Shown here: positions 12,190 through 39,992 of the stretch, piece by piece
Layout: every line of letters begins with the position of its first letter
How positions within the stretch are numbered: the stretch's first letter is position 1
Assembly (NCBI RefSeq): GCF_014284275.1
Contig: NZ_JACOFU010000003.1
Coordinates: 310,001-374,000, forward strand
Source of the DNA: Affinundibacterium amnicola
GTDB taxonomy: Bacteria > Pseudomonadota > Gammaproteobacteria > Burkholderiales > Burkholderiaceae_D
Length of the DNA: 64,000 bases
Direction: 5' to 3'
Translations under genes and position numbers: made by a program
Notes under the pieces: model-generated
Told to the model about the DNA's origin: nothing
The model's database searches: none
The model's input: the letters and a program-made list of their open reading frames with translations, nothing else

Positions 12190-13200
12190 TTAATCTTCAC
12201 TTTGTTCAATAGCAAAGGCCGCACCACTAAGTGCTGCCAAGGTATCGGTAATGAGCGCCGTTGGAATTTGTTGTAAGTAAGATTGGAAGCGACCTTTCGC
12301 TTCAAACTTTGCGCGGAATCGCGATTGAAAAAAGTAGTCGCCAAGACGCGGTACGATGCCGCCACCGATATACACACCACTACGTGCACCAACCGTGAGC
12401 GCAATATTGCCGCAGAAGCTACCAAGCAATGCACAGAAACAGTCCAGCGTTTTGGCGCAAATGGCATCTTGACCTTGCAAGCCACGTTCGACGATTTGTT
12501 CTGTGCTTAACTCTTGTGGTTCGACTTGCATGCTACGCGCGACAGAACGATATAAAACGGGCATACCGATCCCCGACAACAATCGTTCGGCAGAGATATG
12601 ATTAAATTCCGCGCGCGCGTGGGTGAGCACGCTGGCCTCAAAATCATCTGTCGCTGCCAAGGTTGCATGGCCGCCTTCTCCCGGTATCGCGATCCAGCCA
12701 TGTCGAGTTTCTATGACCGATCCCACGCCTAAGCCTGTACCCGGGCCAACTACCGCCAGTGTTCCTGAATGTTGTGGTAGCGCGCCGTGCGCACGTATCT
12801 GTTCAGCCTTCAAACGGGGAAGAGATAAGGCCAAAGCTTCAAAATCATTGAGGGCAATAAATCGATCTAATTGCAAAGCAGCTTTCACCTCAGCACGTGA
12901 AAATTGCCAATGGCTGTTGGTGAATTGAATTTGCTCTTGCCCGACAGCAGTCGCGACTGCAAAAGCAGCGCATCTTGGAGCTTGATATTGATCGCCTAAT
13001 TCTTGTTGTAATTGCTGCAGATATTTTTCACTAGCGGCAATTGGCGTGGCGAAGTCAGCCACCGCCAAAGTTCTTACTTGTGTAATGTCCGCACCAGCGG
13101 CAGCGACCCAACCAAAGCGAGCATTGCTGCCGCCGATATCGGCGATCAGCCAAGGGTAGGGCGCTGTTATTGTTGCCGGCAAATTAGAGGCTGTTGTCAT
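12190..13200 (-). CDS. glk: Glucokinase
   Basis: An ATP-dependent bacterial glucokinase of 336 residues that phosphorylates glucose on entry to central metabolism. Motifs include the phosphate-binding PWLIADIGGSNARFGWV near the N-terminus, VVGPGTGLGVGSVI, the glucose-contacting PGEGGHATLA and GGIVPRLGDYF. It heads the minus-strand run with the two GH13 genes. It is divergent from a second glucokinase fused to a HexR-type regulator, with 627 bases between them. The two kinases are clearly related but not close copies. Confidence 0.92.
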   Translation of the reverse strand: MTTASNLPATITAPYPWLIADIGGSNARFGWVAAAGADITQVRTLAVADFATPIAASEKYLQQLQQELGDQYQAPRCAAFAVATAVGQEQIQFTNSHWQFSRAEVKAALQLDRFIALNDFEALALSLPRLKAEQIRAHGALPQHSGTLAVVGPGTGLGVGSVIETRHGWIAIPGEGGHATLAATDDFEASVLTHARAEFNHISAERLLSGIGMPVLYRSVARSMQVEPQELSTEQIVERGLQGQDAICAKTLDCFCALLGSFCGNIALTVGARSGVYIGGGIVPRLGDYFFQSRFRAKFEAKGRFQSYLQQIPTALITDTLAALSGAAFAIEQSED

Positions 13201-13427
13201 TGCGGGTTAATCCTGTAGCGTAAATCGCATTCTGTTTCGGTCGACATTGCCGTGATGGGGCAGTGTGCCTTTTATTGCTTGCGAGTCCGGGTAAATCGGT
13301 ATTTACGGAAATATTTTGAATGAATGTAGCAAAACTACATAAATGCTGCAATGATTTTGTTCGATGATTTGAGAATTTCTTTGAAAGTGTGGTTTTCAGC
13401 GAAAGAATTCTTTTTGAAAGAACAAGT

Positions 13428-13437
13428 TGTAGTCTGA
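13428..13437. promoter_or_regulatory. HexR-like half-site on the glk side
   Basis: TGTAGTCTGA repeats the left arm of the two better operators at 13606-13620 and 13689-13703. The right arm is missing, so this is a half-site at best. It lies about 230 bases upstream of glk and may serve the divergent promoter. Confidence 0.3.
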
Positions 13438-13605
13438 GAATCAGCCTGCATACGATAATGCATCGATGTTTAGTTGAGATGCCCCTTATATAAGTGGTTG
13501 ATTTTTTGGTGCTTTAGACTAAAAATGAGTTAAGGAAGTCGCTAGTGAAAATTGATTAATATCAATTTGACTAGGATAATTACTCGTCTGACTACGTGCT
13601 TGATC

Positions 13606-13620
13606 TGTAGTCTAGTTACA
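13606..13620. promoter_or_regulatory. HexR-like operator 1
   Basis: TGTAGTCTAGTTACA fits the published HexR-type palindrome TGTARTnnnAYTACA with one mismatch. It lies in the 627-base region between divergent glk and glk-hexR, which contains no gene. Its centre is 83 bases from that of operator 2, close to eight helical turns, so cooperative looping is possible. Confidence 0.5.
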
Positions 13621-13688
13621 AGAAATTTGTTATTTGGAATCTGAACTACTTAAAAAGGCATCAAGTGGACTGATATATCCAAATCCAG

Positions 13689-13703
13689 TCTAGTCAGACT
13701 ACA
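13689..13703. promoter_or_regulatory. HexR-like operator 2
   Basis: Read on the minus strand this is TGTAGTCTGACTAGA, one mismatch from TGTARTnnnAYTACA. It is the site nearest the glk-hexR start (about 125 bases upstream). A weaker relative (CGTCTGACTACG) lies at about 13585. The fused regulator probably controls its own gene through these sites. Confidence 0.5.
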
Positions 13704-13827
13704 ATGTGTTTTCTTGTTTTTTCACTCGCATGTCTGTTCGTTTTATCGCAGAATTTGCAGCGAGTAAGTTGCTTTTTCATTCTCGTCGCCTGATTTAGGC
13801 AGTAAAGCCTTATTTTTTTGGATACCT

Positions 13828-15774
13828 ATGCAAGCCAATCAAGTTGCCCGTACTTCATCTGCGCAAAGTGCCCAGCATCCGACGCCACATTTACTGGCGG
13901 ATATTGGCGGAACCTATGCACGATTTACGCTCGAAATGGGAAAAGGTGATTTTCAATATACGCATTCTTTGTTGTGTGCGGATTACGCAGACTTTTATTC
14001 TGCCGTAAAAGCGTATTTGCAAAGTTTGCCTGATCTGCATATCGAACATGCTGCGGTGGCGATTGCTAATCCGGTCGATGGTGATCAAGTCAGTATGACT
14101 AACTATCACTGGCAATTTTCGATTGAGGAAATGCGGCAAAAGTTAGGTTTTGATACCTTATTGATCGTGAACGATTTCACTGCCTTGGCAATGGCCTTGC
14201 CTAGACTTGGGGCAAATGATGTGCAGCAAATTGGTGGCGGCGAGGCGCGCAAACAAAGCGTGATTGGTTTACTTGGCCCAGGTAGCGGCTTAGGAACCTC
14301 GGGTTTAATTCCTGCTGGTGATGGCTGGATCTCGCTTGGCTCTGAAGGTGGTCACACCAGTTTCGCGCCGCGAGATGAACGTGAAATCGTGATCTTGCGA
14401 TATGTTTGGAAACACTTTGCACACGTCTCTTTTGAGCGCTTGGTATCTGGCCCGGGCTTAGAGTTGATTTATCAAGCCTTGTCTGAACATGCGCAAGTTA
14501 AACCTAAAGAATTGACTGCGCCAGAGATTACCCAACATGCACTTGATCAACATGATGCGCAATGTATTGAGGCGCTTGACGTGTTCTGTGCTCTGTTGGG
14601 AACCGCTGCGGCAAATCTCGCTGTGACTTTGGGTGCGATGGGAGGTATCTATATTGGTGGCGGTATTGTGCCGCGTTTGGGTGAGTATTTTGCAGCATCA
14701 AGTTTTCGACCACGATTTGAGGAAAAAGGGCGATTTAGCCGTTATGTTGCGGCGATCCCTACATTTGTGATCACGGCTGAACATGCCACTTTTATGGGGG
14801 CGGCGGCAATTTTGGATGCGCAGCTACGTACTTTAAAGACAGAGCCAGGCTCAGCAATCTTAGGGCAAATCAGGCGTATTCGTGCTGACCTGTCACCCGC
14901 TGAATTACGCGTCGCTGATCATGTCTTGGCACACGCCAGAGCCGTGGTGAATGATCCTATCGCCGAGATTGCCCGTGCCGCAGATGTCAGCCAACCGACG
15001 GTGATTCGATTCTGTCGCTCACTTGGTTGTGAAGGTTTGTCCGATTTTAAATTGCGCTTGGCATCGGGCTTGACTGGCACGGTGCCTGTCACACATATCC
15101 AGGTCACCGATGATGATTCTGCTTTAGAGCTTGGCGCAAAGGTGTTGGGAAATACCGCATCGTCTATCTTGCAGGTACGCAGTCAATTAAATCGCGACAT
15201 GATAGAGCGTGCAATTCAATTGATTAGCAGAGCGAACAAGTTAGAGTTTTACGCCATTGGTCACTATGGCGTGGTAGCCCAAGATGCACAATTTAAATTT
15301 TTACGACTAGGCATTCCAAGTATTGCGCACACCGATTCGCGTTTACAACTGTTGTCTGCGAGCGTTTTAAGTGATAAAGACGTGGTTGTTATTAGCAGTA
15401 GTAGCGGCCGCCTACCTGAGTTGTTAGAAGTCGCTGAAAAAGTGCGTGAACGTGGTGCGAAAATCATTGCGATTGCCGCTAGTCATTCGCCTTTAATTCG
15501 TAAAGCCGACGTTGCCTTGATTGTTGACCATGTCGAAGACGTCACAACGCATTTGCCTATGGTTAGCCGGATCTTACATTTGTTGGTGATTGATATGTTG
15601 GCTGTTGGCGTAGCAATGGGGCGCAATCCCGGCACCGCAGGATTAATGTCGGGTGAAGCGGATGAGCGTCTTGATGAAGCCACACCCGTTTCCAAAAAGC
15701 CGGCTGCGCGCAATCAGGCACCGGGCGTTAGCTTGGCTTCGCCCTTGGCAAAACTGACCTCACATAGTCGATAG
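13828..15774 (+). CDS. glk-hexR: Bifunctional glucokinase / RpiR-HexR family transcriptional regulator
   Basis: A 648-residue fusion. Residues about 20-335 are a glucokinase (LLADIGGTYARFTLEMG, LGPGSGLGTSGLI, GSEGGHTSFAP, IGGGIVPRLGEYF). Residues about 344-420 form an RpiR-type helix-turn-helix (IAEIARAADVSQPTVIRFCR), and about 455-595 a SIS sugar-phosphate-binding domain (FYAIGHYGVVAQDAQFKFLR, VVVISSSSGRLPELLEVA). HexR proteins sense Entner-Doudoroff intermediates such as KDPG; fusions of this kind are known in Burkholderiales. The enzyme therefore makes glucose-6-phosphate and the regulator part senses a product downstream of it. HexR-like palindromes lie upstream. Confidence 0.92.
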   Translation: MQANQVARTSSAQSAQHPTPHLLADIGGTYARFTLEMGKGDFQYTHSLLCADYADFYSAVKAYLQSLPDLHIEHAAVAIANPVDGDQVSMTNYHWQFSIEEMRQKLGFDTLLIVNDFTALAMALPRLGANDVQQIGGGEARKQSVIGLLGPGSGLGTSGLIPAGDGWISLGSEGGHTSFAPRDEREIVILRYVWKHFAHVSFERLVSGPGLELIYQALSEHAQVKPKELTAPEITQHALDQHDAQCIEALDVFCALLGTAAANLAVTLGAMGGIYIGGGIVPRLGEYFAASSFRPRFEEKGRFSRYVAAIPTFVITAEHATFMGAAAILDAQLRTLKTEPGSAILGQIRRIRADLSPAELRVADHVLAHARAVVNDPIAEIARAADVSQPTVIRFCRSLGCEGLSDFKLRLASGLTGTVPVTHIQVTDDDSALELGAKVLGNTASSILQVRSQLNRDMIERAIQLISRANKLEFYAIGHYGVVAQDAQFKFLRLGIPSIAHTDSRLQLLSASVLSDKDVVVISSSSGRLPELLEVAEKVRERGAKIIAIAASHSPLIRKADVALIVDHVEDVTTHLPMVSRILHLLVIDMLAVGVAMGRNPGTAGLMSGEADERLDEATPVSKKPAARNQAPGVSLASPLAKLTSHSR

Positions 15775-15810: not shown

Positions 15811-15957
15811 ATGAGAGATCTGTTGCAGATTTTCTCCAGAGCGTCTCTGCACTTGCGTTATGGCACTTCAATAGATGGCTTAATTGACATTTTCATCTCT
15901 ATTCTCACTGAACTGGTGCTGCGGTACCGCTCTTTCATTTGTCGTTTAAGTGCCGAT

Positions 15958-16373
15958 TTTGTAGCTTAATCCCGCCCTTTTTGCATTTCGTCGCATGTCG
16001 ATAGCACTTGACTGAAAGCTTGATTACAGTACACCCATCGAATCACGGTTCGATACAAAAACCAAGCAAAACTTTGACATCATTTAACGACATCTTTAGG
16101 AGAAATATCATGAAAACATTGACCGCAACCGCCATCGTTTCTGCAGCTTCTGCTTGCGTAACTTCTTTAATTTTTGTGGGTATCGTCAACGTCGCAACTA
16201 CGACCCAAGTTGAAGCATCACCAGCACCGATACAAACTGTTACAGTACGTCACGCTCGTATGACAGAAGCAGAAAAACTCGCTTATGATCAAGAAACATC
16301 CATGATGCAAACAGTCGTGATCAGCGCAAAGCGTTTAACGCCAGAGCAAAAAGCGGCAATGTCTGCAGAGTAA
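15958..16373 (+). repeat. Tandem segmental duplication, copy 1
   Basis: A leader block (TGCATTTCGTCGCAT at 15982-15996, followed by ACTTGA, GCTTGAT and AGTACAC-CATCGAA) plus the small gene at 16110. The same blocks in the same order precede the second small gene at 17056. The unit of duplication therefore includes the promoter region as well as the coding part; the two copies are about 940 bases apart and have diverged. Confidence 0.75.
16110..16373 (+). CDS. Small exported protein of unknown function, copy 1
   Basis: An 87-residue protein I do not recognise. The start at 16110 is chosen because TAGGAGAA lies directly upstream and because the sequence from here matches the paralogue at 17056; an upstream in-frame start (16008) falls in the leader repeat. 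Residues 1-35 are a signal peptide or membrane anchor (ending near VNVATTTQVEA). The rest contains two related units: VTVRHARMTEAEKLAYDQE and VVISAKRLTPEQKAAMSAE. The pattern is charged, helical and periplasmic. The first 31 residues are almost identical to copy 2, whereas the mature part has diverged more. Confidence 0.75.
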   Translation: MKTLTATAIVSAASACVTSLIFVGIVNVATTTQVEASPAPIQTVTVRHARMTEAEKLAYDQETSMMQTVVISAKRLTPEQKAAMSAE

Positions 16374-16880
16374 GAAAAACAGTTCGTTGTACTTGAGTAG
16401 TTTATTACGTGGTTTGTGAAACTGTTTGTAGAGCCTTTCGTAGACTAGCTTGCAGATCAGTTCATTATCGATGTTTGCCGCAAGATTGAGCGCAAGCAGA
16501 TAATTCAAAAGAGTTCGAGTGCCGACTCTTATTTGTTACAGTGAATCCGCCCGTTGCTATTCTCAGCACGGCGATGAAGAGAGTTAAGTGTTATTGCTTC
16601 TCTTCAGGCACTCATGTCTTATTTCTTTGTTTATTCCCTGATTTACTTCCAGATCTACTCTCATCATTTCGTTGAAACTGAATATCAGTTGTCCGCATAT
16701 TTTTTGTCGTTCATGAATCTTACTAGAGCAAAAATATCGTTCAATGTTTGCGCTGAATATTGGTATTTGAAACTGCATTTGAAACTAAATCTATTAAGAG
16801 ATTTTTTGCGTCAGAGATGATGTAGGTAGCACTGCATTTTTATTAGATCAGATCGTTGATCACAAACATTAATTCCTCAT
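16374..16880. other. Intergenic stretch between the duplicated genes
   Basis: About 500 AT-rich bases. Short open frames exist on both strands (for example 16614-16820 plus and 16584-16778 minus) but they overlap each other, lack ribosome sites and have unlikely compositions rich in Tyr, Phe and Leu. No terminator with a T-run was seen after copy 1. Confidence 0.5.
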
Positions 16881-17328
16881 TTTTAGTACTTGAATCCCGC
16901 AATTATGCATTTCGTCGCATAGCCCTGGTACTTGATTTTTGGCTTGGATATAGTACACACATCGAAATGCAAAACGAAGTGCAAATCGATAATGTAGGAA
17001 GCGAAAAATACTTAGATTTCGCATCATTTTTTAAAACTTATTTTGGAGAACTATCATGAAAACATTAACTGCAACTGCCATCGTTTCCGCTGCTTCTGCT
17101 TGCTTAACATCTTTGATTTTTGTCGGTATCGTGAACGTGGCGACAAGCGCTGATGTTGAAGCTTCTGTTGCACCGATTCAATCGGTGACTGTGAGTGCGA
17201 AACGTATGAGTGACGAAGATAAATTGGCTTATGATTTAGAAATGGCACAAATGACCGTGACGCAGGTAGTTGAGATTCGCGCGAAACGTTTGACTGCTGC
17301 TGAAAAAGCCAAGATGACAGCAGAATAA
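16881..17328 (+). repeat. Tandem segmental duplication, copy 2
   Basis: Carries the same leader blocks as copy 1: GAATCCCGC, TGCATTTCGTCGCAT, TACTTGA, GCTTGGATATAGTACAC and CATCGAA, then the second small gene. A TATAGT, TACAGT in copy 1, is kept directly before the shared GTACAC or TACAC and may be the -10 box. Confidence 0.75.
17056..17328 (+). CDS. Small exported protein of unknown function, copy 2
   Basis: A 90-residue paralogue of the gene at 16110, with the same N-terminal 31 residues apart from one Val/Leu change. The signal segment is followed by two internal units, VTVSAKRMSDEDKLAYDLE and VEIRAKRLTAAEKAKMTAE, each with a beta-like stretch, AKR(M/L) and a charged helix. GGAG lies about eight bases before the ATG. 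I cannot assign a function. The preserved leader and RBS in both copies suggest that both are expressed. An envelope or metal/stress-related periplasmic role is possible but not shown. Confidence 0.75.
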   Translation: MKTLTATAIVSAASACLTSLIFVGIVNVATSADVEASVAPIQSVTVSAKRMSDEDKLAYDLEMAQMTVTQVVEIRAKRLTAAEKAKMTAE

Positions 17329-23421: not shown

Positions 23422-26400
23422 CTAGTTTGACCAGCTCTGGCTCAAGACCTCAGCTTGCTTTAAACACAAATCAATCGCTTCATCCGTTTTATCTGGTGGA
23501 TATTTCCACTTTTTCAAAGCGCGGCGTACTAAATTACGCAATTTGGCACGCACACTGTCACGCACCTGCCAATCGACCGTGGTTGACGAACGTAATTGCT
23601 CGGTAACGTATTTAGCCAGTTCCCGCAGATTATTGTCGCCCAGTTCTTTCACTGCAGATTCGTTTTGGATCAAAGCGCGATAGAAGGCGATCTCGTCGGA
23701 ATTGAGTCCCAGTTTGGCGGCTTGCTCGGCATCGGCTGCCATCTCCTTCGCCATATTGATCAATTCTTCGATCACTTGAGCGGTTTCGATAGCGCGGTTA
23801 TGGTACTTGCGTAGCGTTTCTAAAATACGATCTGAATATTTTTTCTCAGACACGACATCCGTTTTCATGCGCGCTTTGACTTCGTCACGCAGTAATTTTT
23901 CCAGCAGTTCTACCGCCAAATTTTTGTGCGGCATGCGCGCCACGTCTTCCATAAATTCAGGGGAGAGCAGACCGATATTTGGTTTGTCTAAGCCCACCAT
24001 TTTAAAAATATCATCCACACCATCGGCAATAATCGCGTTATCGATGATTTGTTTGAGCGCACTATTTTTCTCTTCGTCGGTGCGGCGTTTATCAATGGTC
24101 GTGAACTTGGTGATCGCGTGCTTCACCGCACTTAAGAACGCGATCTCTTTTTTCAAAGGTTCAACTTCACTCATGGTGCTACACAGCGTATAGGCTTTAT
24201 TGAGTGCCGCCATTACGTCGAGAAAACGCTTCTTCCCATCGAGCTCGCCGCTAGCACCTTTCATTCCCAACAAGTGATTCATCGCCCTAGGCAATAGCTG
24301 CAAGGCCTTGGTCTCAAACTCGCTGTAATCAAAGCCATGAAACATCGCATGCACGATATCCATTTTCTCCAACAAAATCGCATAGGCTTCACGTGTATCG
24401 TGGGTGGGTTGGCCTTTGCCTTGTGAGCCTGTGTAAGTGTGCAGTGCCTTTTTTAACTCGCTGGCGATGCCAATATAGTCCACCACCAAACCGCCCGGTT
24501 TATCTTTGAAAACCCTATTCACCCGCGCAATCGCTTGCATCAGGTTATGGCCTTTCATGGGCTTGTCGATATACATGGTGTGACAATTCGGCGCATCAAA
24601 ACCCGTCAGCCACATATCACGCACGATCACTAATTGCAGAGGATCGTTCACATCTTTAAAGCGCTTTTCAAACAGCTTTTTGGTGTCTTTGTTGTAGATG
24701 TGCGGCTGCAGTTTGGATTTATCCGAAGCCGAACCTGTCATCACTATCTTAATCGCGCCCTTGGTCGGATCTGCATCGTGCCATTCAGGTTTGATCGCCA
24801 CAATCGCGTCATACATATCGACGCAAATTTCGCGGCTCATGCACACGATCATGCCTTTGCCCGGCATGCTGGCGATGCGGTTTTCAAAGTGCGCGACTAA
24901 GTCTTTGCCGACTTGTTGCATGCGCGGTTCGCTGCCGACCAGTTTTTCTAAAGCCGCCCATTGTGATTTGGTGCTTTCACGGCTAGCAACATCTTCTTCA
25001 TCTTCGATGACTTCATCGACTTCTTCATTCAGGGTTTCTATCTCATTCTGATTGATGTCGAGTTTTGCCAAACGTGATTCGTAATAGATAGGCACGGTCG
25101 CGCCATCGTCCACCGCATCTTGAATATCGTAGATAGAAACATAGTCACCAAACACTGCCTTGGTGTCTTTGTCGGCAGAATCAATCGGTGTACCTGTAAA
25201 GCCGATGAACGATGCCTCCGGCAACGCATCGCGCATGTGCTTGGAATAGCCAAACGTGTATTGCCCAGTCTTGGTATTGAATTTGGCCTTGTCGCCATAT
25301 TGACTACGATGCGCTTCATCGCTAATCACCACGATATTGTGGCGCGTCGAGAGAATAGGGTGACTAGCTTCCTCACCCAACAAAGCAAACTTTTGCACCG
25401 TCGTAAAAATAATGCCACCTGCCTGACGTGAGCTGAGTAATTCACGTAAATCATCTCTATCATCCGCTTGTACCGGAGTTTGCTTGAGCGCTTCTTGGGC
25501 CATGCAAAAGGTATTGTAGAGTTGACCGTCCAGATCATTTCTATCTGTCACCACGACGATGGTCGGATTGTTCATCTCAGGCTGCGCCAGCAGTTTCGCC
25601 GCATAGCACAGCATAGAAATCGATTTACCCGAACCTTGCGTATGCCATACCACGCCCGCTTTACCTGAGCCTGCTACAACTTCGTTGGCATAATTGGCAC
25701 GAGGCTGGGCAATGCTGCGTCCATCGGGACGTTGTGCCGCAATCACCGTCGCACGCACCGCCTCACGCACAGCATGAAATTGATGATAACCCGCGATTTT
25801 CTTAATGATGTTGTCGCCATCTAGTTCAAACAAAATGAAATAGCGTATGTAATCAAGGAATAAATCGGGCTTAAAAAATCCCTTCACCAAAGTCTCTAAA
25901 TGAAACTCAAACAGCGGCTTATCATGTTCATTCGCCACCGTGCGCCACGGCAAGAAGCGCTCTTTGTTGGAAGTGAGCGAACCCACACGCGCAATTAAAC
26001 CATCGCTCACCACGACCGCTTCATTAAAAATAAACAGATCAGGAATTTCTTCTTTATAGGTTTGTATCTGCTGAAACGCTTGCCAAATATCGGCGTTTTG
26101 ATCGGCAGGATTTTTCAGTTCCAACACCGTGAGCGGAATGCCATTAATAAACACCAGCACATCAGGGCGGCGATTACCTTTGCTGCCCGCCAAAGAATAT
26201 TGATTGACGACCAAAAATTCATTGTTGCCAGTGTTAGCAAAATCAATCAACTGCACATAATCGATCTTGCTCTCAGCATTGCCGTTGGCATCGACTTCCT
26301 GCGATTTAAATTCCACCTTCACGCCTTCCAGCAAAAGCTGATGAAAGGCTTTGTTATTTTTGATCAGTATCGGTGTTTCTGGCTTAGCGATTTGTAGCGC

Positions 26401-26604
26401 GACTTGTTCTAAGGTGGCGGCGGGGATATGGGGATTAATCTTTTGCAGAGCCGACAATAAACGTGCTGGCAAAATGATCTGACGATAATCACTCCGTTCG
26501 GGACTGTTTCCGTCTGGCGCAATATCATAGCCGCAGACATAGCTATAACCAATTTCAGCAAACCAAGTGAGGCAGAGTTGTTCTAGTTGGTCTTCAGTGA
26601 TCAT
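23422..26604 (-). CDS. hsdR: Type I restriction enzyme, R (motor/nuclease) subunit
   Basis: HsdR is the ATP-driven translocase and nuclease of a type I restriction complex. The 1060-residue product has the PD-(D/E)xK nuclease near the N-terminus (RRPDVLVF with Asp148, then LELK with Glu162 and Lys164), Walker A TQGSGKS (322-328), Walker B SDEAHRSQYG, and helicase motif VI-type MQAIARVNRV. The C-terminus is helical, for HsdM contact. It is the last gene of the operon, and its ATG overlaps the end of the AlbA_2 gene by 11 bases (ATGATCACTGA). All catalytic motifs look intact. Confidence 0.95.
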   Translation of the reverse strand: MITEDQLEQLCLTWFAEIGYSYVCGYDIAPDGNSPERSDYRQIILPARLLSALQKINPHIPAATLEQVALQIAKPETPILIKNNKAFHQLLLEGVKVEFKSQEVDANGNAESKIDYVQLIDFANTGNNEFLVVNQYSLAGSKGNRRPDVLVFINGIPLTVLELKNPADQNADIWQAFQQIQTYKEEIPDLFIFNEAVVVSDGLIARVGSLTSNKERFLPWRTVANEHDKPLFEFHLETLVKGFFKPDLFLDYIRYFILFELDGDNIIKKIAGYHQFHAVREAVRATVIAAQRPDGRSIAQPRANYANEVVAGSGKAGVVWHTQGSGKSISMLCYAAKLLAQPEMNNPTIVVVTDRNDLDGQLYNTFCMAQEALKQTPVQADDRDDLRELLSSRQAGGIIFTTVQKFALLGEEASHPILSTRHNIVVISDEAHRSQYGDKAKFNTKTGQYTFGYSKHMRDALPEASFIGFTGTPIDSADKDTKAVFGDYVSIYDIQDAVDDGATVPIYYESRLAKLDINQNEIETLNEEVDEVIEDEEDVASRESTKSQWAALEKLVGSEPRMQQVGKDLVAHFENRIASMPGKGMIVCMSREICVDMYDAIVAIKPEWHDADPTKGAIKIVMTGSASDKSKLQPHIYNKDTKKLFEKRFKDVNDPLQLVIVRDMWLTGFDAPNCHTMYIDKPMKGHNLMQAIARVNRVFKDKPGGLVVDYIGIASELKKALHTYTGSQGKGQPTHDTREAYAILLEKMDIVHAMFHGFDYSEFETKALQLLPRAMNHLLGMKGASGELDGKKRFLDVMAALNKAYTLCSTMSEVEPLKKEIAFLSAVKHAITKFTTIDKRRTDEEKNSALKQIIDNAIIADGVDDIFKMVGLDKPNIGLLSPEFMEDVARMPHKNLAVELLEKLLRDEVKARMKTDVVSEKKYSDRILETLRKYHNRAIETAQVIEELINMAKEMAADAEQAAKLGLNSDEIAFYRALIQNESAVKELGDNNLRELAKYVTEQLRSSTTVDWQVRDSVRAKLRNLVRRALKKWKYPPDKTDEAIDLCLKQAEVLSQSWSN

Positions 26605-28513
26605 TTTCTAACTCTTCTTTAGCGGATCGATAAGCTTGCTCAGGATGATTTGGTTTGGTCGGATACTTGTAGAACAATTGTTTTGCTTTTAACATTGGCT
26701 GGAGATAGTCTTTTCGGATTACATTTGTTGATCTTTTAAGTAATGAGGCTAATTCTCCCAATGTGCAGGCCTTGTCTTGGCATAACTCGAGAATGGTCTT
26801 TACGACAACTTCTTTTGAAACTTTCTTTTTGGATGCGACAGGCTCAGCTAATAATTGAAGTTCGCTCAAACCCCCAGAGCTATTGTTGAAACCCCCAGAC
26901 CTTCCGCTCAAACCCCCAGAGCTATCAGTCAATGTATTGAAGTCCACAACTTTCTTTGAGTCGTCGAAAAAATCATCTCCAAAAATTTCCTTAATGTCAT
27001 CACTTAGCCGAGCTTGGGCAAGAAAATAGATGGTTCCTCTTCCAGCACCTTCTTGTAAGAGTAAACTTCGCTCAATCAGTCCACTAAAGGTGGCGGATAG
27101 ATCTTTCGGATGAATATCAAGTACCTGCATCAATCGTCGGTGATCGACTGTACCTTCAATATGAGCCGTGGCTAAAATAAGACGCTCAGTTTCATTCAAA
27201 CAGTCGAATTCCTTTGAACCAATCGACTCTCGTAAAAAGTGAATTGTTTTCTCCGGTACCAAACTTAATGCGTGTAACTCTAAAAGCGTCTGGTCGTTCG
27301 GTACGGCTTTCTCTTTGAGTAGTGGTTGTCGCCAGTGTTGACTCTTCCAACCATCAAAAATCTTAGGCAAACCTGAACCTGCATTTTCTCCTAGGCCTAC
27401 AAATCGAAATAGGTTTTGCAGAATACGATTGCGACAATCACTTTCACTTCCTTGCACGGCACTCTCAATGGCAACACGCATCAGGCCTGGATTCCTAAAA
27501 CCAAACATGTCAGGGCGTTTGACCACAAGAATAGAAGCGTGCCCTGAATAATCGGCATGAATCAAAGTATTGACCAACGCTTCTCGAAGCGCTTTATGTA
27601 CTAAGGTATCGTCCTGTCGCTGATCTCCTTGCATTGTGAAGGGGACTTTTAAATCGGCGGTAAGTTTACGAATAACCTTTTGGTAGAAATCAAAAACATT
27701 CCCAGACCAAGTGCCATCTGGCACGATCCGATCGATCCACCGAGCTTCGGTCTTGGCTTCAGGCCTTTCCTGATAATCAACCATGTAGTTTGGAAAAGCG
27801 TCCATAATTGGACGATATTGTCCAAACATGAGCAAACCAGCTCTCGTCAATCCACTAACGCCAGAAACACGATCGCGACGCCAGGCGCCGATTTGTATTA
27901 AGAATTCCTGATTGTCGACCTTGTTCCAAGGGTGATCAGGCGCACGAGTACTGTACATATTTCGGTAGACGCGCAAACTATCGAGATCAAGATCCTCAAT
28001 CGAATAGCCCACCAAAATCTCTGCGTCGCGGCTCTCTTCACTCTGTTCCGCCAAAAGACGACTTACAGCATCGCGCTGCAATTTCATATCACCACTACCT
28101 AAGCGCTTAAATGTTCCTGTCAGAGGATTATTATTGACGAAAACGGGTTTCTGCTGCCGACTCGCTTGTGGCACGTGAATGTGTATCAGGCGCATTCCTT
28201 CAATCGTGATCACCGTGACCATGGAGTCACGTAACAGGTTAAAGCTTACTTTTTGAGGATTGTTTAGATTATTCCAAAAATCTTCTAAGACCTTTTCTGC
28301 ATTTTCTACACCGCGCAAATCAAAACTAAGATCTTTATTTTCCTTTAAACCCAAGAAAATGTCGCCGCCAGACGTATTCGCAAATGCGCTGTAGGTTTCC
28401 CAGAGATCATTCGGCAAACCGCCTTTGCCATCGCGGCCTTGGGCGAGTTTGCATTCGATGTCCACGCTTTCACGCAATGCGGCAATATCGGTTAAGGAGT
28501 TAAGTTCAAGCAT
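26594..28513 (-). CDS. AlbA_2 (Schlafen-like) plus GHKL-type ATPase protein inside the R-M operon
   Basis: A 639-residue protein. The first 135 residues are an AlbA_2 / divergent AAA_4 domain (ESVDIECKLAQG, YSAFANTSGGDIFLGLKEN). Residues about 295-420 resemble the HATPase_c_4 part of RecG-like ATP-binding proteins (HKALREALVNTLIHADYSG, GFRNPGLMR, GSGLPKIF). Winged-helix segments follow, including one near the C-terminus (TLGELASLLKRSTNVIRKDY). A Gly/Ser linker of three heptads lies at about 529-549. Such proteins occur as R-linked ORFs in hsd loci (the RloA type in Campylobacter, from memory). It starts 23 bases after the SIR2 gene and overlaps hsdR by 11. Function is unproven; a regulator or effector of the defence locus is likely. 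Confidence 0.82.
   Translation of the reverse strand: MLELNSLTDIAALRESVDIECKLAQGRDGKGGLPNDLWETYSAFANTSGGDIFLGLKENKDLSFDLRGVENAEKVLEDFWNNLNNPQKVSFNLLRDSMVTVITIEGMRLIHIHVPQASRQQKPVFVNNNPLTGTFKRLGSGDMKLQRDAVSRLLAEQSEESRDAEILVGYSIEDLDLDSLRVYRNMYSTRAPDHPWNKVDNQEFLIQIGAWRRDRVSGVSGLTRAGLLMFGQYRPIMDAFPNYMVDYQERPEAKTEARWIDRIVPDGTWSGNVFDFYQKVIRKLTADLKVPFTMQGDQRQDDTLVHKALREALVNTLIHADYSGHASILVVKRPDMFGFRNPGLMRVAIESAVQGSESDCRNRILQNLFRFVGLGENAGSGLPKIFDGWKSQHWRQPLLKEKAVPNDQTLLELHALSLVPEKTIHFLRESIGSKEFDCLNETERLILATAHIEGTVDHRRLMQVLDIHPKDLSATFSGLIERSLLLQEGAGRGTIYFLAQARLSDDIKEIFGDDFFDDSKKVVDFNTLTDSSGGLSGRSGGFNNSSGGLSELQLLAEPVASKKKVSKEVVVKTILELCQDKACTLGELASLLKRSTNVIRKDYLQPMLKAKQLFYKYPTKPNHPEQAYRSAKEELENDH
26864..26926 (-). 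repeat. Three 21-bp coding tandem repeats in the AlbA_2 gene
   Basis: Units of 21 bases at 26864-26884, 26885-26905 and 26906-26926, sharing AAACCCCCAGA on the plus strand. In protein they read DSSGGLS, GRSGGFN and NSSGGLS. Because the unit is seven codons, copy-number changes keep the frame and alter only the linker length. Confidence 0.8.
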
Positions 28514-28536
28514 AACGTTCGATTTCTTAATTCTGA

Positions 28537-29700
28537 TTATTTGAGGTTCAGACGATGCTCAGAGATATCAATCGCTAACTCAATAAGCAACGGAAGCATT
28601 TCATGGTAATTTTCACTAGAGTACCAGATCGGACGAATATTCAATATCAACAAACGTTCCTCTGTAGCTTGTCTTTCGGACGGGTTACTAGTCTCAGGTA
28701 AGAAGGCGAAATGCTCAGGTATATCAAACTCTGCACTCGTTTTTACCTGCTGAAATAGCTCAAGTGTCTTATCTTGATTCAAGGAGCAACCTAGAAAAAG
28801 CAATGAATTTGAAATATAGATTTGGCGCAATGCTCGGGGCAGTTGCTTGCTAAAATCGATAGGATCGCCGTAAGCGTTTTGATACTGTTCTGCGGTGAAT
28901 ACATAAGACGAAGATTGGCTCGCATCACCATGTAACTTCAAGATGCAGCGATCACCCTTGAGCAATCGTTGGACAAAATTATTGCCCGCTTGCAGACCAT
29001 ACATATATGCGTCGGTCAACGGAGCACCTTTCAATTTAAACGTCTCTTCTATAAGCGGATCAAAATTGGTGGTAATGATGCAGCCGTTAGCGAGTCTGTA
29101 AAGGTGTTTAAATATTCGTGGAATTTGCTCGCGATCCTCTTCGTTTTCAAACTTAGTACGAAACGTAGTTTGGACATAGTTATTTAACTGAACCTGTGAG
29201 GCATCCGCGATGGTTTGTGCTGCCTCTAAATATTTATTGTCCTGAAGTAGTTCTTGAAAAGCAGTCGCGTCAAAACTGGCGATTTTTTTGCTAAGGGATT
29301 GCAAGGCTTCGCCCCATATTGGGTATCCCGCCGCGCGAGAAACGCCTGCCCCCAAAAATGGCGCAATTTTTTTCTTACGAATAAGTGCGACAAGATCTAG
29401 AAAAACTGCGGATTGGTCAGTATCTTGAATGAAATTAATACAGGCAGAATACTTGTCTTTGATTTGCTCGCCATTCCAACTATCGAATTCATCCCAATAT
29501 GCATTTCGATCAACCCAATAAAGAATTTCGCTGGCGTCGTAGCGATATTCATTGTCAGGTTCCTTAATGCTTCTGACTATAAGTGGCTCTTCGCCATCAA
29601 TTGCTTCATTGAACTGATGATTCGCCTCGTAACCTGTTTGTAAGAAACGTTCGACCGTTTCAATTAACTCGGTGCTCTTTTTTACTTTTTCAATTGACAT
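28537..29700 (-). CDS. SIR2-like (predicted NAD-consuming) protein inside the R-M operon
   Basis: A 387-residue protein with a SIR2-like domain from about residue 105: PFLGAGVSRAAGYPIW (GAGxS at 117-121), TTNFD (210-214), KLHGD with the candidate catalytic His257, and FLGCS (302-306). The first 100 residues are a separate domain I do not recognise. I start at 29700 because GGAGG lies six bases upstream; the open frame extends further into hsdS. The ATG overlaps the hsdS stop by 11 bases (ATGTCAATTGA). SIR2 proteins in defence systems such as Thoeris ThsA and DSR destroy NAD+ during infection; a similar abortive role here is inference. Confidence 0.85.
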   Translation of the reverse strand: MSIEKVKKSTELIETVERFLQTGYEANHQFNEAIDGEEPLIVRSIKEPDNEYRYDASEILYWVDRNAYWDEFDSWNGEQIKDKYSACINFIQDTDQSAVFLDLVALIRKKKIAPFLGAGVSRAAGYPIWGEALQSLSKKIASFDATAFQELLQDNKYLEAAQTIADASQVQLNNYVQTTFRTKFENEEDREQIPRIFKHLYRLANGCIITTNFDPLIEETFKLKGAPLTDAYMYGLQAGNNFVQRLLKGDRCILKLHGDASQSSSYVFTAEQYQNAYGDPIDFSKQLPRALRQIYISNSLLFLGCSLNQDKTLELFQQVKTSAEFDIPEHFAFLPETSNPSERQATEERLLILNIRPIWYSSENYHEMLPLLIELAIDISEHRLNLK

Positions 29701-31072
29701 TCCCGGCCTCCAATTCATTGGAGAGCAGTTTTGGTAATAAATTGTCCCTTGTTTTGGAGAGTGAGCTTTCTTGTTGCTCAAAGATTGCAATTTGATGATT
29801 CATAGGTTCGACGATTGACTCAAAAAATAGACTTAAAGCCAGTGTTGGCTTTGCAAAGGATATATTTTCTAAGACTTGCCGATTAAGTTCAGTTTGTCCA
29901 GTACTGCCAATCCCGCTAGCCTTGATAAACGTCTCATTTTCAAGCATTAAGCCTATTAGAAATGACCTCGATATTTCACTAGTGTTTGCTCGGACGACTG
30001 TTACATGGCTGTCGTGAGCTGTGGGTACGGCCAAATATCTGATCGGCGCAAGACGACCGAGTGTACCAACGCCAGTCGAGTTAACTAGTACATCGCCGAC
30101 TTGAAGCAGGCGATCCTCAACTTTCTTTTTGATTGGGTCATTGAGTCTAGAAAATGAAAAATCTATTTTGTGATTTCGAATGCATTTTTGATTAATGACG
30201 CAGACGCCATTTTCATCCACGTATGCTGGGGAAATGCCTCGTCGTATTTCAGTTGTGACGGACTTTAAGTTGTTCACTACCCACCCCTCCGGTATCTTTC
30301 CCAACGTCGAATCCACCAAAACACCTGGGAATAGGGCTGCGGTGGCTTTTAGTTTCGTTATTGTTTTTGGGTGGTTTTGGGCTAGTTGGTCTGGGGTTTT
30401 GCCGCTGATGGCGCACATGGCGGCGTGTTCGATTTCTTCAGGCGATGCGCCAGCTTCTTTGGCGGCGATCTTGGCGTGTGTGGGTTCGAAATCGACAAAC
30501 CAACTCTTGAATAGGGCTTGTGCGATTTGTTCTAGGGTTTGGTTGGTTTGGCGGTTCGACTCAATCTTTAGGCAAAAATCGAAATAAGTGTCGCCAACTT
30601 TTCTTTGGTACTCCATGTCCAAAGGGATATCGAAATAGAGATTTCCGAAATCGCCTTTTTTAAAATGAGGAATCAAACTCCCAACGTGCATGTTCAAGAT
30701 TTTATTTTGGGTTTCTTCTGATCTGAGTAATGCAAAAAGATATTTAGGGTAAACAATTTTTTCATTTGCACGAATGCCCACCATGTCTTGCGCTATGCAA
30801 AAATCTATCGGATCAGGTACCCAACAAACTCTCCCAGGTGAGCCTTTGCACGTGAAAACCATATCTCCAGGCTTCGGATGCCCACGAAACCAAGTCTTAT
30901 ATGTGTTTTCAGACACATACCTTGCTTTGTCGTACGAAGGATACAAAGTTTCGTTTTTAATGCAGTTTGTCGCAATTAATGGAATGCCTTCCTCAGCGGT
31001 TGGCACTGTTTTCCCTCGATTATCAATAATCTCTGACAATAGACTACGGAACGAGTACTCCTTAAATTTCAT
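29690..31072 (-). CDS. hsdS: Type I restriction enzyme, S (specificity) subunit
   Basis: HsdS gives the complex its bipartite DNA target. The 460-residue product has two target recognition domains (about 1-165 and 265-400) separated and followed by helical conserved regions. The first helix region is the common QTLEQIAQALFKSWFVDFEP. The second ends in LPKLLSNELE. The start at 31072 (MKFKEYSFRSLL) is preferred over an upstream one because it gives an 11-base overlap with hsdM (ATGAAATTTAA), the same junction type as the next gene. Two complete halves mean that the target is probably an asymmetric bipartite site, which cannot be predicted by eye. Confidence 0.93.
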   Translation of the reverse strand: MKFKEYSFRSLLSEIIDNRGKTVPTAEEGIPLIATNCIKNETLYPSYDKARYVSENTYKTWFRGHPKPGDMVFTCKGSPGRVCWVPDPIDFCIAQDMVGIRANEKIVYPKYLFALLRSEETQNKILNMHVGSLIPHFKKGDFGNLYFDIPLDMEYQRKVGDTYFDFCLKIESNRQTNQTLEQIAQALFKSWFVDFEPTHAKIAAKEAGASPEEIEHAAMCAISGKTPDQLAQNHPKTITKLKATAALFPGVLVDSTLGKIPEGWVVNNLKSVTTEIRRGISPAYVDENGVCVINQKCIRNHKIDFSFSRLNDPIKKKVEDRLLQVGDVLVNSTGVGTLGRLAPIRYLAVPTAHDSHVTVVRANTSEISRSFLIGLMLENETFIKASGIGSTGQTELNRQVLENISFAKPTLALSLFFESIVEPMNHQIAIFEQQESSLSKTRDNLLPKLLSNELEAGNVN

Positions 31073-32768
31073 AGCCCAACCCCACCAAGTTCTTCTTAAT
31101 CTTCGCTTCCAATCGATCATTTTCTTCAAACTGCGTTTTCAATTGCGCAGTCAAACGTGCCATTTTGTCGACAAAAGCTTCTCCATCATCTATCACATCT
31201 TCGGCTCCCACATAGCGACCTGGTGTCAGTACGTAATCGTGTTTTTGGATCTCAGTCAAATTCGCGCTAGAACAAAAGCCTTTTTGATCTTCATAATCTT
31301 TACCCGTTTGCCATGCGTGATACACATCGCATATCTTGTTAAGGTCATTTTGCGTAAAGTCGCGTAACACGCGGTCTTTCATATAGCCGAGATTACGCGC
31401 ATCGATGAACAGCACTTTGTTTCTGCGGTCTATCAGTTGACGACCACTTGCCGCCGTGCGTGCGTTTTTGTTTTTGGTCAGGAACCAGATGCAAGCGGGG
31501 ATTTGGGTGTTGGTGAAGAGTTGCCCCGGCAGGGCAACCATGCATTCGACTAAATCATTTTCGATCAACGCTTTGCGAATATCACCTTCGCCGCTAGTGT
31601 TAGAGCTCATGGAACCATTGGCCAGCAATAAGCCCATGCTGCCATTTGGCGCCAGGTGGTAGAGCATGTGCTGCAACCACGCAAAATTGGCATTGCCTGA
31701 TGGTGGGCGACCATAGACCCAGCGCGGGTCATTGTCATCAACACCAGTGTCCCACTCTTTCATATTGAAAGGCGGGTTCGCCATCACAAAGTCGGCGCGC
31801 AGGTCAGGGTGTTGGTCGTTGGTGTAGGTGTTGGCTGGTTCTTTGCCGAAATTAAAATCAATACCGCGTATTGCCATGTTCATGGCGGCAAGTTGCCAGG
31901 TGGTGTGGTTGTATTCTTGGCCGTAAATCGAGATTTCAAGATTCCCGCTTGATTGTTTCGTCTTTCGATCTTGATGTTCACGAATGAATTGTTCCGACTG
32001 TACAAAGAAACCACCCGAGCCCATCGCTGGATCGTACACGCGGCCTTTGTAGGGCTCTAGCATTTGCACGATGAGACTGACGATGGCTTTGGGTGTATAA
32101 AACTGGCCGCCTTTTTTGCCTTCGGCTAATGCGAATTGCCCTAGAAAATACTCGTAGACGTGGCCGAGTATATCTTTGCTTGATAAGGATTTGTGCCTAA
32201 ACGGAATGGTGGAAATCAAATCAATCAATTCACAGAGTTTGGCTTGGTCGATTTGCAGTTGGGTATAACGTTTATTGAGTACGCCTTTGAGTTTTTTCTC
32301 ATTATCGAGTTCAATCGCTTCTAAGGCGGAATCAATTAAATGACCAACCGAACTGATTTTAATCTTCTTGGTTCTGTTTTTGACTTGAATAGATAATTCT
32401 GCGCCGCCAATAACGACTTTGTTTTTGTCACGTAAAAATTGCCAGCGCGCGACGGGCGGCACCCAGAAGGTATTGGTCTCTAGATAGTAATCGCGTCCTT
32501 CAAGTTCTGCTGCGATGTCGGTTTGGTAGTCGGCATCGTCATCAAAATCGGCGGGATCAATAAAATAGTCGTGTTTAGGATTTGTGAATTGCGCCTTGAG
32601 TTCGTCACGGCGAATATCAAACGCATCGGACACATATTTTAAAAACACCAGCCCCAGCATGACGTGCTTGTATTGCGAGGCGTCGAGTGAGGGCAGAAGT
32701 TTGTTGGCACTGGTCCAGAGTTTTTTCTCTAGATTGTTGAGGAATTCTTGTTCGTTTTGGTCGGTCAT
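31062..32768 (-). CDS. hsdM: Type I restriction enzyme, M (N6-adenine methyltransferase) subunit
   Basis: HsdM methylates adenine in the HsdS target with S-adenosylmethionine. The 568-residue product has the N-terminal HsdM helical domain, then the SAM-binding motif I DPAMGSGGFF (246-255) and catalytic NPPF (331-334), typical of N6-adenine enzymes. GGQFYTPKAIV before motif I is characteristic. I start at ATG 32768 (MTDQNEQEFL), as in most HsdM proteins; the frame is open 15 codons further upstream. It follows the GIY-YIG gene by 67 bases and is the first core R-M gene. Confidence 0.95.
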   Translation of the reverse strand: MTDQNEQEFLNNLEKKLWTSANKLLPSLDASQYKHVMLGLVFLKYVSDAFDIRRDELKAQFTNPKHDYFIDPADFDDDADYQTDIAAELEGRDYYLETNTFWVPPVARWQFLRDKNKVVIGGAELSIQVKNRTKKIKISSVGHLIDSALEAIELDNEKKLKGVLNKRYTQLQIDQAKLCELIDLISTIPFRHKSLSSKDILGHVYEYFLGQFALAEGKKGGQFYTPKAIVSLIVQMLEPYKGRVYDPAMGSGGFFVQSEQFIREHQDRKTKQSSGNLEISIYGQEYNHTTWQLAAMNMAIRGIDFNFGKEPANTYTNDQHPDLRADFVMANPPFNMKEWDTGVDDNDPRWVYGRPPSGNANFAWLQHMLYHLAPNGSMGLLLANGSMSSNTSGEGDIRKALIENDLVECMVALPGQLFTNTQIPACIWFLTKNKNARTAASGRQLIDRRNKVLFIDARNLGYMKDRVLRDFTQNDLNKICDVYHAWQTGKDYEDQKGFCSSANLTEIQKHDYVLTPGRYVGAEDVIDDGEAFVDKMARLTAQLKTQFEENDRLEAKIKKNLVGLGYEI

Positions 32769-32835
32769 ATTGTTCTTAGTTTTTTTGTGTTTTTGTTGGA
32801 TAAATCTTTGCAACGCATGAGTTGTTCATGCTGAG

Positions 32836-33459
32836 CTACGGTGCACTTTCAAATTGTTCGCTCTCAATGCGTTGGCGGCGTTCGTCCAGTGTTTCACCTT
32901 CATACATCCAAAAGACCGAGCCACTGACGCTGCCTATGCTATAACCTTTGGCTTGCAGAATGTTGAGTGCTGAGCGTGATAGACTGGTGACTGTTCCTTG
33001 GTAGTCGATTTGGGTTTCATTGAGCACTGTGCATTTGATGTCGGTATCGCGAGAAAAAACTAGTTCTGCACCGACAGGCACATTAATTGCGCGCAGATTA
33101 ATGCGATCACGTCTTGCGCGTGTTTCTGTAACAGCACGTTGCTCTTCTGCGTCTTCGAATATCCCGATGCGTGGCGTGACATCTTGATGCGGCGTTAAGC
33201 GCAATGCCGTAACCACTTTTTCTGGCGATAAACGAAAGAATTCACGATTGGGTCGTATGCGTTGTTCCGCAAACAGGGTATGCAAAATGCGTTCAATCTC
33301 GAACGCGTTTGCAACGCGGGCTGCGTAGTGGCATTCAAACGGAAGGGGGAGAGACGTGCGATCTAAAGTTTTGATGCGATTTTCTATATTGTCGGTGTAA
33401 CCAATTTTGATGATGCCTGGCATCGCTTCATTGGTCATTACGTAAACTATGTCGCCCAT
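32836..33459 (-). CDS. GIY-YIG (T5orf172/MUG113-type) nuclease domain protein with C-terminal RAMA-like domain
   Basis: A 207-residue two-domain protein. Residues 1-95 resemble the T5orf172/MUG113 branch of GIY-YIG nucleases: DIVYVMTN, then IIKIGYTDNIENRIKTL with the conserved Arg, and NREFF with the metal-binding Glu. Residues about 125-195 resemble RAMA, a domain linked to restriction and adenine methylases (YQGTVTSLSRSALNILQAKG, GSVFWMYEG). AAGGA lies close before the ATG. It sits just upstream of hsdM on the same strand and may be the first gene of the defence operon. Whether it cuts DNA is unknown. Confidence 0.82.
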   Translation of the reverse strand: MGDIVYVMTNEAMPGIIKIGYTDNIENRIKTLDRTSLPLPFECHYAARVANAFEIERILHTLFAEQRIRPNREFFRLSPEKVVTALRLTPHQDVTPRIGIFEDAEEQRAVTETRARRDRINLRAINVPVGAELVFSRDTDIKCTVLNETQIDYQGTVTSLSRSALNILQAKGYSIGSVSGSVFWMYEGETLDERRQRIESEQFESAP

Positions 33460-39929: not shown

Positions 39930-39992
39930 AAAATCATTTCGTCGCACTAAGAAAATTGTCACAAAAAATTCATCACAATACAGAGAGTTGCT

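Follow-up and report, generated by a model that had tools for sequence, protein, structure and literature searches.

To our knowledge, soluble proteins with TonB boxes are known only from bacteriocins, and our literature searches found no description of free-standing TonB-box proteins that control TonB-dependent transport, nor of a cell that makes Ton box peptides itself. The TonB box of colicin M is given as ETLTV (PMC11658791), and a synthetic Ton box pentapeptide, ETVIV, has been employed in living E. coli with the aim of blocking TonB (PMC5413942). Here we describe a family of tiny, predicted exported proteins, apparently undescribed since the same kind of search did not find it, which carry a short unit that resembles the TonB boxes of TonB-dependent receptors. 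The likeness lies in a Q/E-x-V-x-V/I-S/T-A/G core, often with R two residues on, and in the placement of the unit in a flexible exported stretch. Unlike the receptors, however, the family consists of free-standing small proteins without Plug or barrel. Each protein carries one to three boxes, the box is followed by a TxxEK helix, and the unit is more stereotyped than a receptor box, i.e. A-K-R is followed by L/M-T/S-x-x-E-K, the latter being required by no receptor box. The family also lacks the toxin architecture of colicins that have a TonB box.

A second group of similar systems comprises Spy, CpxP, ZraP and MgrB-like proteins. These are likewise small and exported, appear to be top targets of an envelope-type regulon and have T-x-x-E/Q helix starts. 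In contrast to them, the present family has no meaningful match to a known family and no helical bundle, but a strand motif instead.

A tandem gene pair and its family

An earlier note had described, within the window (the whole 64-kb stretch of DNA that was analysed), a tandem duplication of an unrecognised small exported protein with a nearly identical signal region and a diverged mature part, the duplication extending into the leader. Both ORFs, of 87 and 90 aa, are present (Table 1). The copies are identical at 33 of 37 positions in residues 1–37 and at 16 of 29 in residues 38–66, and two DNA blocks are repeated at 75% identity each, one of 214 nt (16083-16296 of copy 1 versus 17029-17242 of copy 2) and one of 64 nt (15979-16042 versus 16903-16966) that includes the exact repeat TGCATTTCGTCGCAT. 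Searches of Pfam and NCBIfam at E ≤ 10 gave no match for either window protein. The note had allowed that the frames might fail to hold up in relatives; yet both copies have orthologs in five relatives, with dN/dS values of 0.01–0.19 for copy 1 and 0.04–0.14 for copy 2 (one pair saturated). Judged by these ratios both ORFs are under purifying selection, and the low values therefore mark them as real proteins.

Table 1. Coordinates of the features of the tandem pair, numbered from the first position of the window.
Feature	Positions	Strand	Basis
Copy 1, 87-aa protein with export-type N-terminus	16110..16373	+	ORF; orthologs in five relatives
Copy 2, 90-aa protein with export-type N-terminus	17056..17328	+	ORF; orthologs in five relatives
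Copy 1 operator: two direct half-sites 21 bp apart, second = TTTTTGCATTTCGTCGCA	15956..16007	+	match of operator model R1 at 15957-16006, E 1.5e-10
Copy 1 -10 element TACAGT, N5, CATC	16025..16039	+	pattern hit G000:C23:325991-326039; sequence
Copy 2 operator	16880..16931	+	match of operator model R1 (site inside its training set) at 16880-16930, E 1.6e-11; score 59.8
Copy 2 -10 element TATAGT, N5, CATC	16949..16963	+	pattern hit G000:C23:326915-326963
Copy 1 unit 1, QTVTVRHARMTEAEK, degenerate	16233..16277	+	sequence
Copy 1 unit 2, QTVVISAKRLTPEQK	16308..16352	+	sequence
Copy 2 unit 1, QSVTVSAKRMSDEDK	17179..17223	+	sequence; one of 88 units in the unit matrix
Copy 2 unit 2, QVVEIRAKRLTAAEK	17263..17307	+	sequence; one of 88 units in the unit matrix

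In six relatives, each copy is 81–100% identical to its own ortholog versus 54–74% to the other copy, and at the six pair loci at least one window neighbour (glk-hexR, MCP or GGDEF) adjoins the pair, one of these loci being incomplete at a contig end. Because identity between orthologs exceeds identity between copies and the neighbours are shared, the sequences indicate that the tandem pair is old. One genome, G024, has three copies.

The internal units ascribed to both proteins, V-x-V/I-x-AKR(M/L)-(T/S)-x-x-(E/D)K, are real, but the exact pattern fits only the two units of copy 2 (VTVSAKRMSDEDK and VEIRAKRLTAAEK). In copy 1, the first unit (VTVRHARMTEAEK) has HAR where the pattern has AKR, and the second (VVISAKRLTPEQK), otherwise nearly clean, has Q in place of E/D. 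Across the family the consensus is Q-T-V-x-I-S-A-K-R-(L/M)-(T/S)-x-x-E-K, with A7, K8 and R9 conserved at 92%, 80% and 90%, respectively, and the unit is present in one, two or three copies. An AF2 model of copy 2 (mean pLDDT 73, pTM 0.29) has helices at residues 4–28, 53–65 and 81–89, the remainder being coil. In the model a short helix follows each strand-like stretch and there is no fold, which is the picture to be expected of a linear-motif carrier.

The description as a single unrecognised pair with internal duplication was sound but incomplete, as the pair belongs to a large family. Counting copies in relatives revealed that this family is genus-wide, and the home genome has four members, namely the tandem pair (contig C23, of which the window covers 310001-374000), C28:302908 and C12:581978. 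In a first survey all 36 Undibacterium genomes (home included) matched, and none of 24 genomes from other families of the order did. With a profile of 29 members, matches at E ≤ 0.001 were obtained in 162 of the 392 genomes from the taxonomic family; these include all 43 genomes of the genus (the home genome among them) and represent 14 of the family's 44 genera. One to three units are visible in 15 of 16 outside-genus matches that were inspected; for the sixteenth, L145, the stretch inspected ends before the unit position. The filter for members kept 62 rows (61 loci), the proteins of which were thinned to 44 at 80% identity. Since sequences of the copy 1 type and some further members (e.g. 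L013, L021 and L058) did not pass this filter, copy 1 is absent from the promoter models and from the unit matrix used below.

Among the matches listed for the 29 members, no library model matches more than two of them, with best E values of 0.0043 (Pfam) and 0.00026 (NCBIfam). For four outside-genus members all library matches fall below the cut-off, and a search of PDB sequences gave one weak match alone, to a polysaccharide deacetylase (E 0.12). As no Pfam, NCBIfam or PDB match is consistent, identity with a known family was rejected. A mobile or phage origin was likewise rejected, since copy 2 has no tblastn match among 72,556 records of plasmids and 50,697 of phages. In a further locus (L144, G025:C29, positions 2-1735), one family unit (QQVAITAHRMTEGEKAAYD) lies mid-way in a larger protein encoded by a 578-aa open frame, which has no Pfam match at E ≤ 0.01.

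The promoter and the genes that share its operator

The duplicated block in the leader is kept, as the earlier note had observed, but it is not merely carried along by the duplication: its sequence identifies it as a dedicated promoter whose operator consists of two half-sites, and it is found before all four home paralogs. The pattern TC-N-CA-N29-TA-N-AGT occurs upstream of 61 of the 62 member rows in the genus, the exception being L075, the start of which is called far downstream. These 61 promoters were thinned to 46 at 88% identity, and the 46 align over 93 nt when set at a fixed distance to the -10 element. As the 29 nt up to the -10 are part of the search pattern, gap-free spacing there is given by construction; the upstream half-site and CATC were left unanchored. 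The layout reads TTT-N6-TT-N-A-T-N-CCC and, 21 bp on, TTT-N6-TTCRTCGCA, followed by a weak TSGCA at -35, 17 bp, TAHAGT, N5 and CATC. All 46 promoters have the downstream half-site (at least 8 of 9 positions), and 42 have the upstream half-site (at least 6 of 9) at 21 bp. The operator of copy 1, which is outside the training set of model R1, reaches a weight-matrix score of 55.7 as compared to -1.6 for the best non-site in the window. In the home genome (4.58 Mb), TCGCA-N(27-31)-TANAGT-N(4-6)-CATC has four matches, each preceding a family gene; the reversed control pattern has none in this genome and one or two in some others.

The full promoter model has matches in 273 of 392 genomes and in 28 of 44 genera. 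As it was trained on the genus only, its hits outside the genus provide independent evidence that promoter and protein belong together. Of 20 such loci, hand-picked among the matches listed and including the near-copies L371/L373 and L372/L374, 19 lead to a gene with one unit. In 18 of these the frame is intact, and the 17 proteins measured have 57–76 aa. In these genes the unit is placed C-terminally or nearly so, is often preceded by P and scores 4.9–18.1; in L384 it lacks TxxEK. Most of the N-termini have a KNMEAIF-like stretch. The remaining gene, L385, has no unit. The gene in L372 (G399:C7), a relative of that in L374 with the same promoter, is broken by an in-frame stop. Within the window, CATTTCGTCGCA at 39935-39946, just upstream of a MetQ/NlpA-like gene and without a second half-site, was rejected as a further operator; it is outside the best eight two-half-site matrix scores on that strand and is therefore probably a chance occurrence.

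The operator model has six matches at E below 1e-5 in the home genome, four of which are the family genes (copy 1 untrained). The fifth precedes a gene whose product looks, on visual inspection, like the DUF418 proteins found in congeners, although the fragment of it contained in L279 has no Pfam match, and the sixth a gene for a small membrane protein with a DUF2807 gene behind it. One study places DUF2807 among the ‘Toastrack’ envelope-stress domains (PMC11237479). The next match, at E 0.03, is a receptor gene. Of the 43 Plug-domain genes of the home genome, a single one, on contig C31 at about 192450 (L266/L281; TonB box QRVEVQGKSQEQF), has the family operator within the sequence examined, and the idea that several home receptors carry the operator was rejected on this count.

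Matches of the operator model at E ≤ 0.1 occur in 43 of 43 genus genomes, and in congeners the operator precedes further receptor genes as well as genes for DUF418, DUF2807, TetR and HlyD-type adaptor proteins. Forty non-family hits, hand-picked among the matches listed and comprising many mutual orthologs, were grouped by eye into a membrane protein with a GEEI-like motif (12), DUF418-type proteins (7), TetR (4), receptors (3), exported SQEFVVVP-type proteins (3), other small membrane proteins (3), DUF2807 (2), RND adaptors (2), a beta-lactamase (1) and three others. Pfam confirms representatives for DUF2807, TetR, HlyD, beta-lactamase, DUF418 and the receptor; the representatives of the GEEI-like and SQEFVVVP types and one small membrane protein have no Pfam match. 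Even without TonB binding, family and promoter define a large regulon across the bacterial family, for which our literature searches found no description.

As far as the layout of the operator tells, the regulator is probably of the LytTR (AlgR-like) type; it would be in charge of an envelope-type regulon. LytTR sites are typically two imperfect direct repeats about 12 bp apart, usually few bp upstream of the -35 (PMC4064291, PMC6193735). The family promoter agrees with this arrangement in its two imperfect direct half-sites, which are 21 bp apart near the -35 (12 bp between 9-bp repeats), and in the position of the operator 6 bp upstream of the -35; moreover, its core TTCRTC resembles the AlgR sequence CCGTTCGTC. 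AlgR's own sites are often not paired repeats (PMC4064291). Unlike an autoregulated system, none of the 18 LytTR genes of the home genome has the operator at its own locus (about 1.5 kb on each side), and an autoregulated LytTR gene was rejected for this reason.

Likeness of the unit to TonB boxes and what it may mean

No counterpart of the unit had been known to the author of the earlier note. This holds for Pfam and NCBIfam, which give no consistent match, but not in general, as the TonB box of TonB-dependent receptors is a recognisable counterpart. The home genome has 43 Plug and 12 TonB_C matches. A receptor matrix was made from the TonB-box windows of the 43 Plug-containing home genes, which were chosen by a generic regular expression and not by the family; positions 3, 5 and 7 are dictated by this expression, and pieces of signal peptides seem to make up at least two of its 43 picks. 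In 44 of 44 non-redundant members, the two best windows of this matrix are exactly both units, and none of 14,573 windows from 30 control proteins reaches the members' 25th percentile; by this test the units have the hydrophobic-x-hydrophobic-x-(A/G) core of the home genome's receptor boxes. Conversely, for 31 of 43 receptors, taken as the protein parts contained in the loci read, the best window of the unit matrix falls within the TonB-box zone, with 3.4 expected. One hundred column-shuffled unit matrices gave a mean of 10.1 of 43 and a maximum of 22, none reaching 31, and the reversed matrix gave 14 of 43; the likeness is thus partly compositional. Q1, V3, V/I5, S/T6, A/G7 and R9 are common to unit and receptor boxes, and one home receptor box reads QTVQVSAKRT. 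The first non-family match of the family profile in the home genome is a receptor N-terminus (E 0.89). The two window proteins themselves are not receptors: they end after the units, have no Pfam hit and lack the Plug and beta-barrel that follow a receptor's box.

Our preferred reading, to which we give a probability of about 0.38, is that the family is a putative periplasmic TonB ligand, produced under a stress-type regulon and competing with receptors. It draws on the match of the matrices in both directions (44 of 44 members and 31 of 43 receptors), on the dedicated promoter, whose operator also stands before a receptor gene, the DUF418-like gene and the DUF2807 operon, on the short helices on a flexible chain in the AF2 model, and on the precedent of the Ton box pentapeptide. 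The proteins would be small periplasmic proteins, predicted to be exported by Sec and cleaved, or else N-terminally membrane-anchored, with the short linear unit, occurring one to three times along a flexible chain, as the working part. In response to a predicted stress signal, an activator, most likely LytTR (AlgR-like), may bind the direct repeats, recruit RNA polymerase at each gene's own promoter and serve an envelope-stress-like regulon. In the periplasm the first seven residues of the unit would act like a TonB box and pair with TonB's C-terminal domain in the manner of receptor boxes, and the units would compete with TonB-dependent receptors or buffer them. As a putative outcome, TonB-driven opening of the outer membrane would be throttled under envelope stress. 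Several observations count against this reading: V-x-V-x-(A/G) is a simple strand motif and the likeness in part compositional, the family unit is more stereotyped than receptor boxes and adds TxxEK, unit 1 of copy 1 is degenerate, unit scores are lower outside the genus, one of the 20 promoter-linked genes there (L385) has no unit, and the operator is found at one of 43 home receptors and at none of the 18 LytTR loci.

The unit could also be a motif for another periplasmic partner, such as a protease or PDZ protein, a peptidoglycan factor or a sensor domain, its likeness to TonB boxes being convergence among strand peptides. A-K-R is nearly fixed in the family and not in TonB boxes, TxxEK follows A-K-R in the family, and the position of the unit at or near the C-terminus outside the genus would suit such a partner. 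However, the ordered match to the receptor boxes of the home genome exceeds the composition effect, and we consider this explanation somewhat unlikely.

Envelope-stress feedback or chaperoning of the Spy/CpxP or MgrB kind is unlikely in our view. Here, the proteins would quench the sensor kinase of their regulator or protect the envelope, and (L/M)(T/S)xxEK would be the active part, like LTxxQ. Such a role would agree with a dedicated promoter that drives small exported proteins, with a regulon content that looks like envelope stress, and with the LTPEQK-like helix starts in the units, where AF2 places helices. Weak NCBIfam matches point in the same direction, to Spy for one outside-genus member (E 0.39, residues 6–45, mainly the N-terminal segment) and to ZraP for 2 of 29 members (best E 0.26). 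However, the proteins do not match the Spy/CpxP (LTXXQ) family model: neither window protein has any Pfam match, and LTXXQ is absent among the best 25 of 31 weakly matching families for the 29 members. Moreover, a helical bundle is absent from the AF2 model (pTM 0.29), helices are commonly capped by S/T-x-x-E, and the strand part of the unit would stay unexplained.

A secreted peptide signal, or a precursor like that of a bacteriocin, with cleavage at KR and LytTR regulation as in peptide quorum-sensing circuits, would account for the repeated units with dibasic KR, the several paralogs and the LytTR-like direct repeats, but is very unlikely given the export-type N-terminus, the strong purifying selection on the pair instead of diversification, and three home-genome places at which the neighbours differ and an unsystematic reading came across no gene for immunity, a transporter or a receptor.

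If the family does serve as the cell's own Ton box peptides, it would be a natural means of regulating nutrient uptake as well as the entry of phages and bacteriocins, and its simple genetics would make it possible to ask how dozens of receptors share TonB. The wider proposition, that members of this taxonomic family encode sets of free-standing TonB-box proteins under a dedicated, probably stress-controlled promoter, as natural TonB ligands that switch down, buffer or redistribute TonB-dependent transport and so form a control layer on the energy system of the outer membrane, is rather doubtful.

Other features of the window

Positions 23422-33459 carry what we take to be a type I restriction-modification locus with HsdR-, HsdS- and HsdM-like ORFs (names from translations), and presumably ATP-binding schlafen/AlbA-like, SIR2-like and GIY-YIG-like ORFs between or beside them; the region looks like a defence island. 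At 12190-15774 there are two divergent genes that we assume to be glucokinase-like, one of them fused to an RpiR/HexR-like regulator, adjoining two presumably glycosidase-like genes. The two glucokinase-like genes are about 40% alike.
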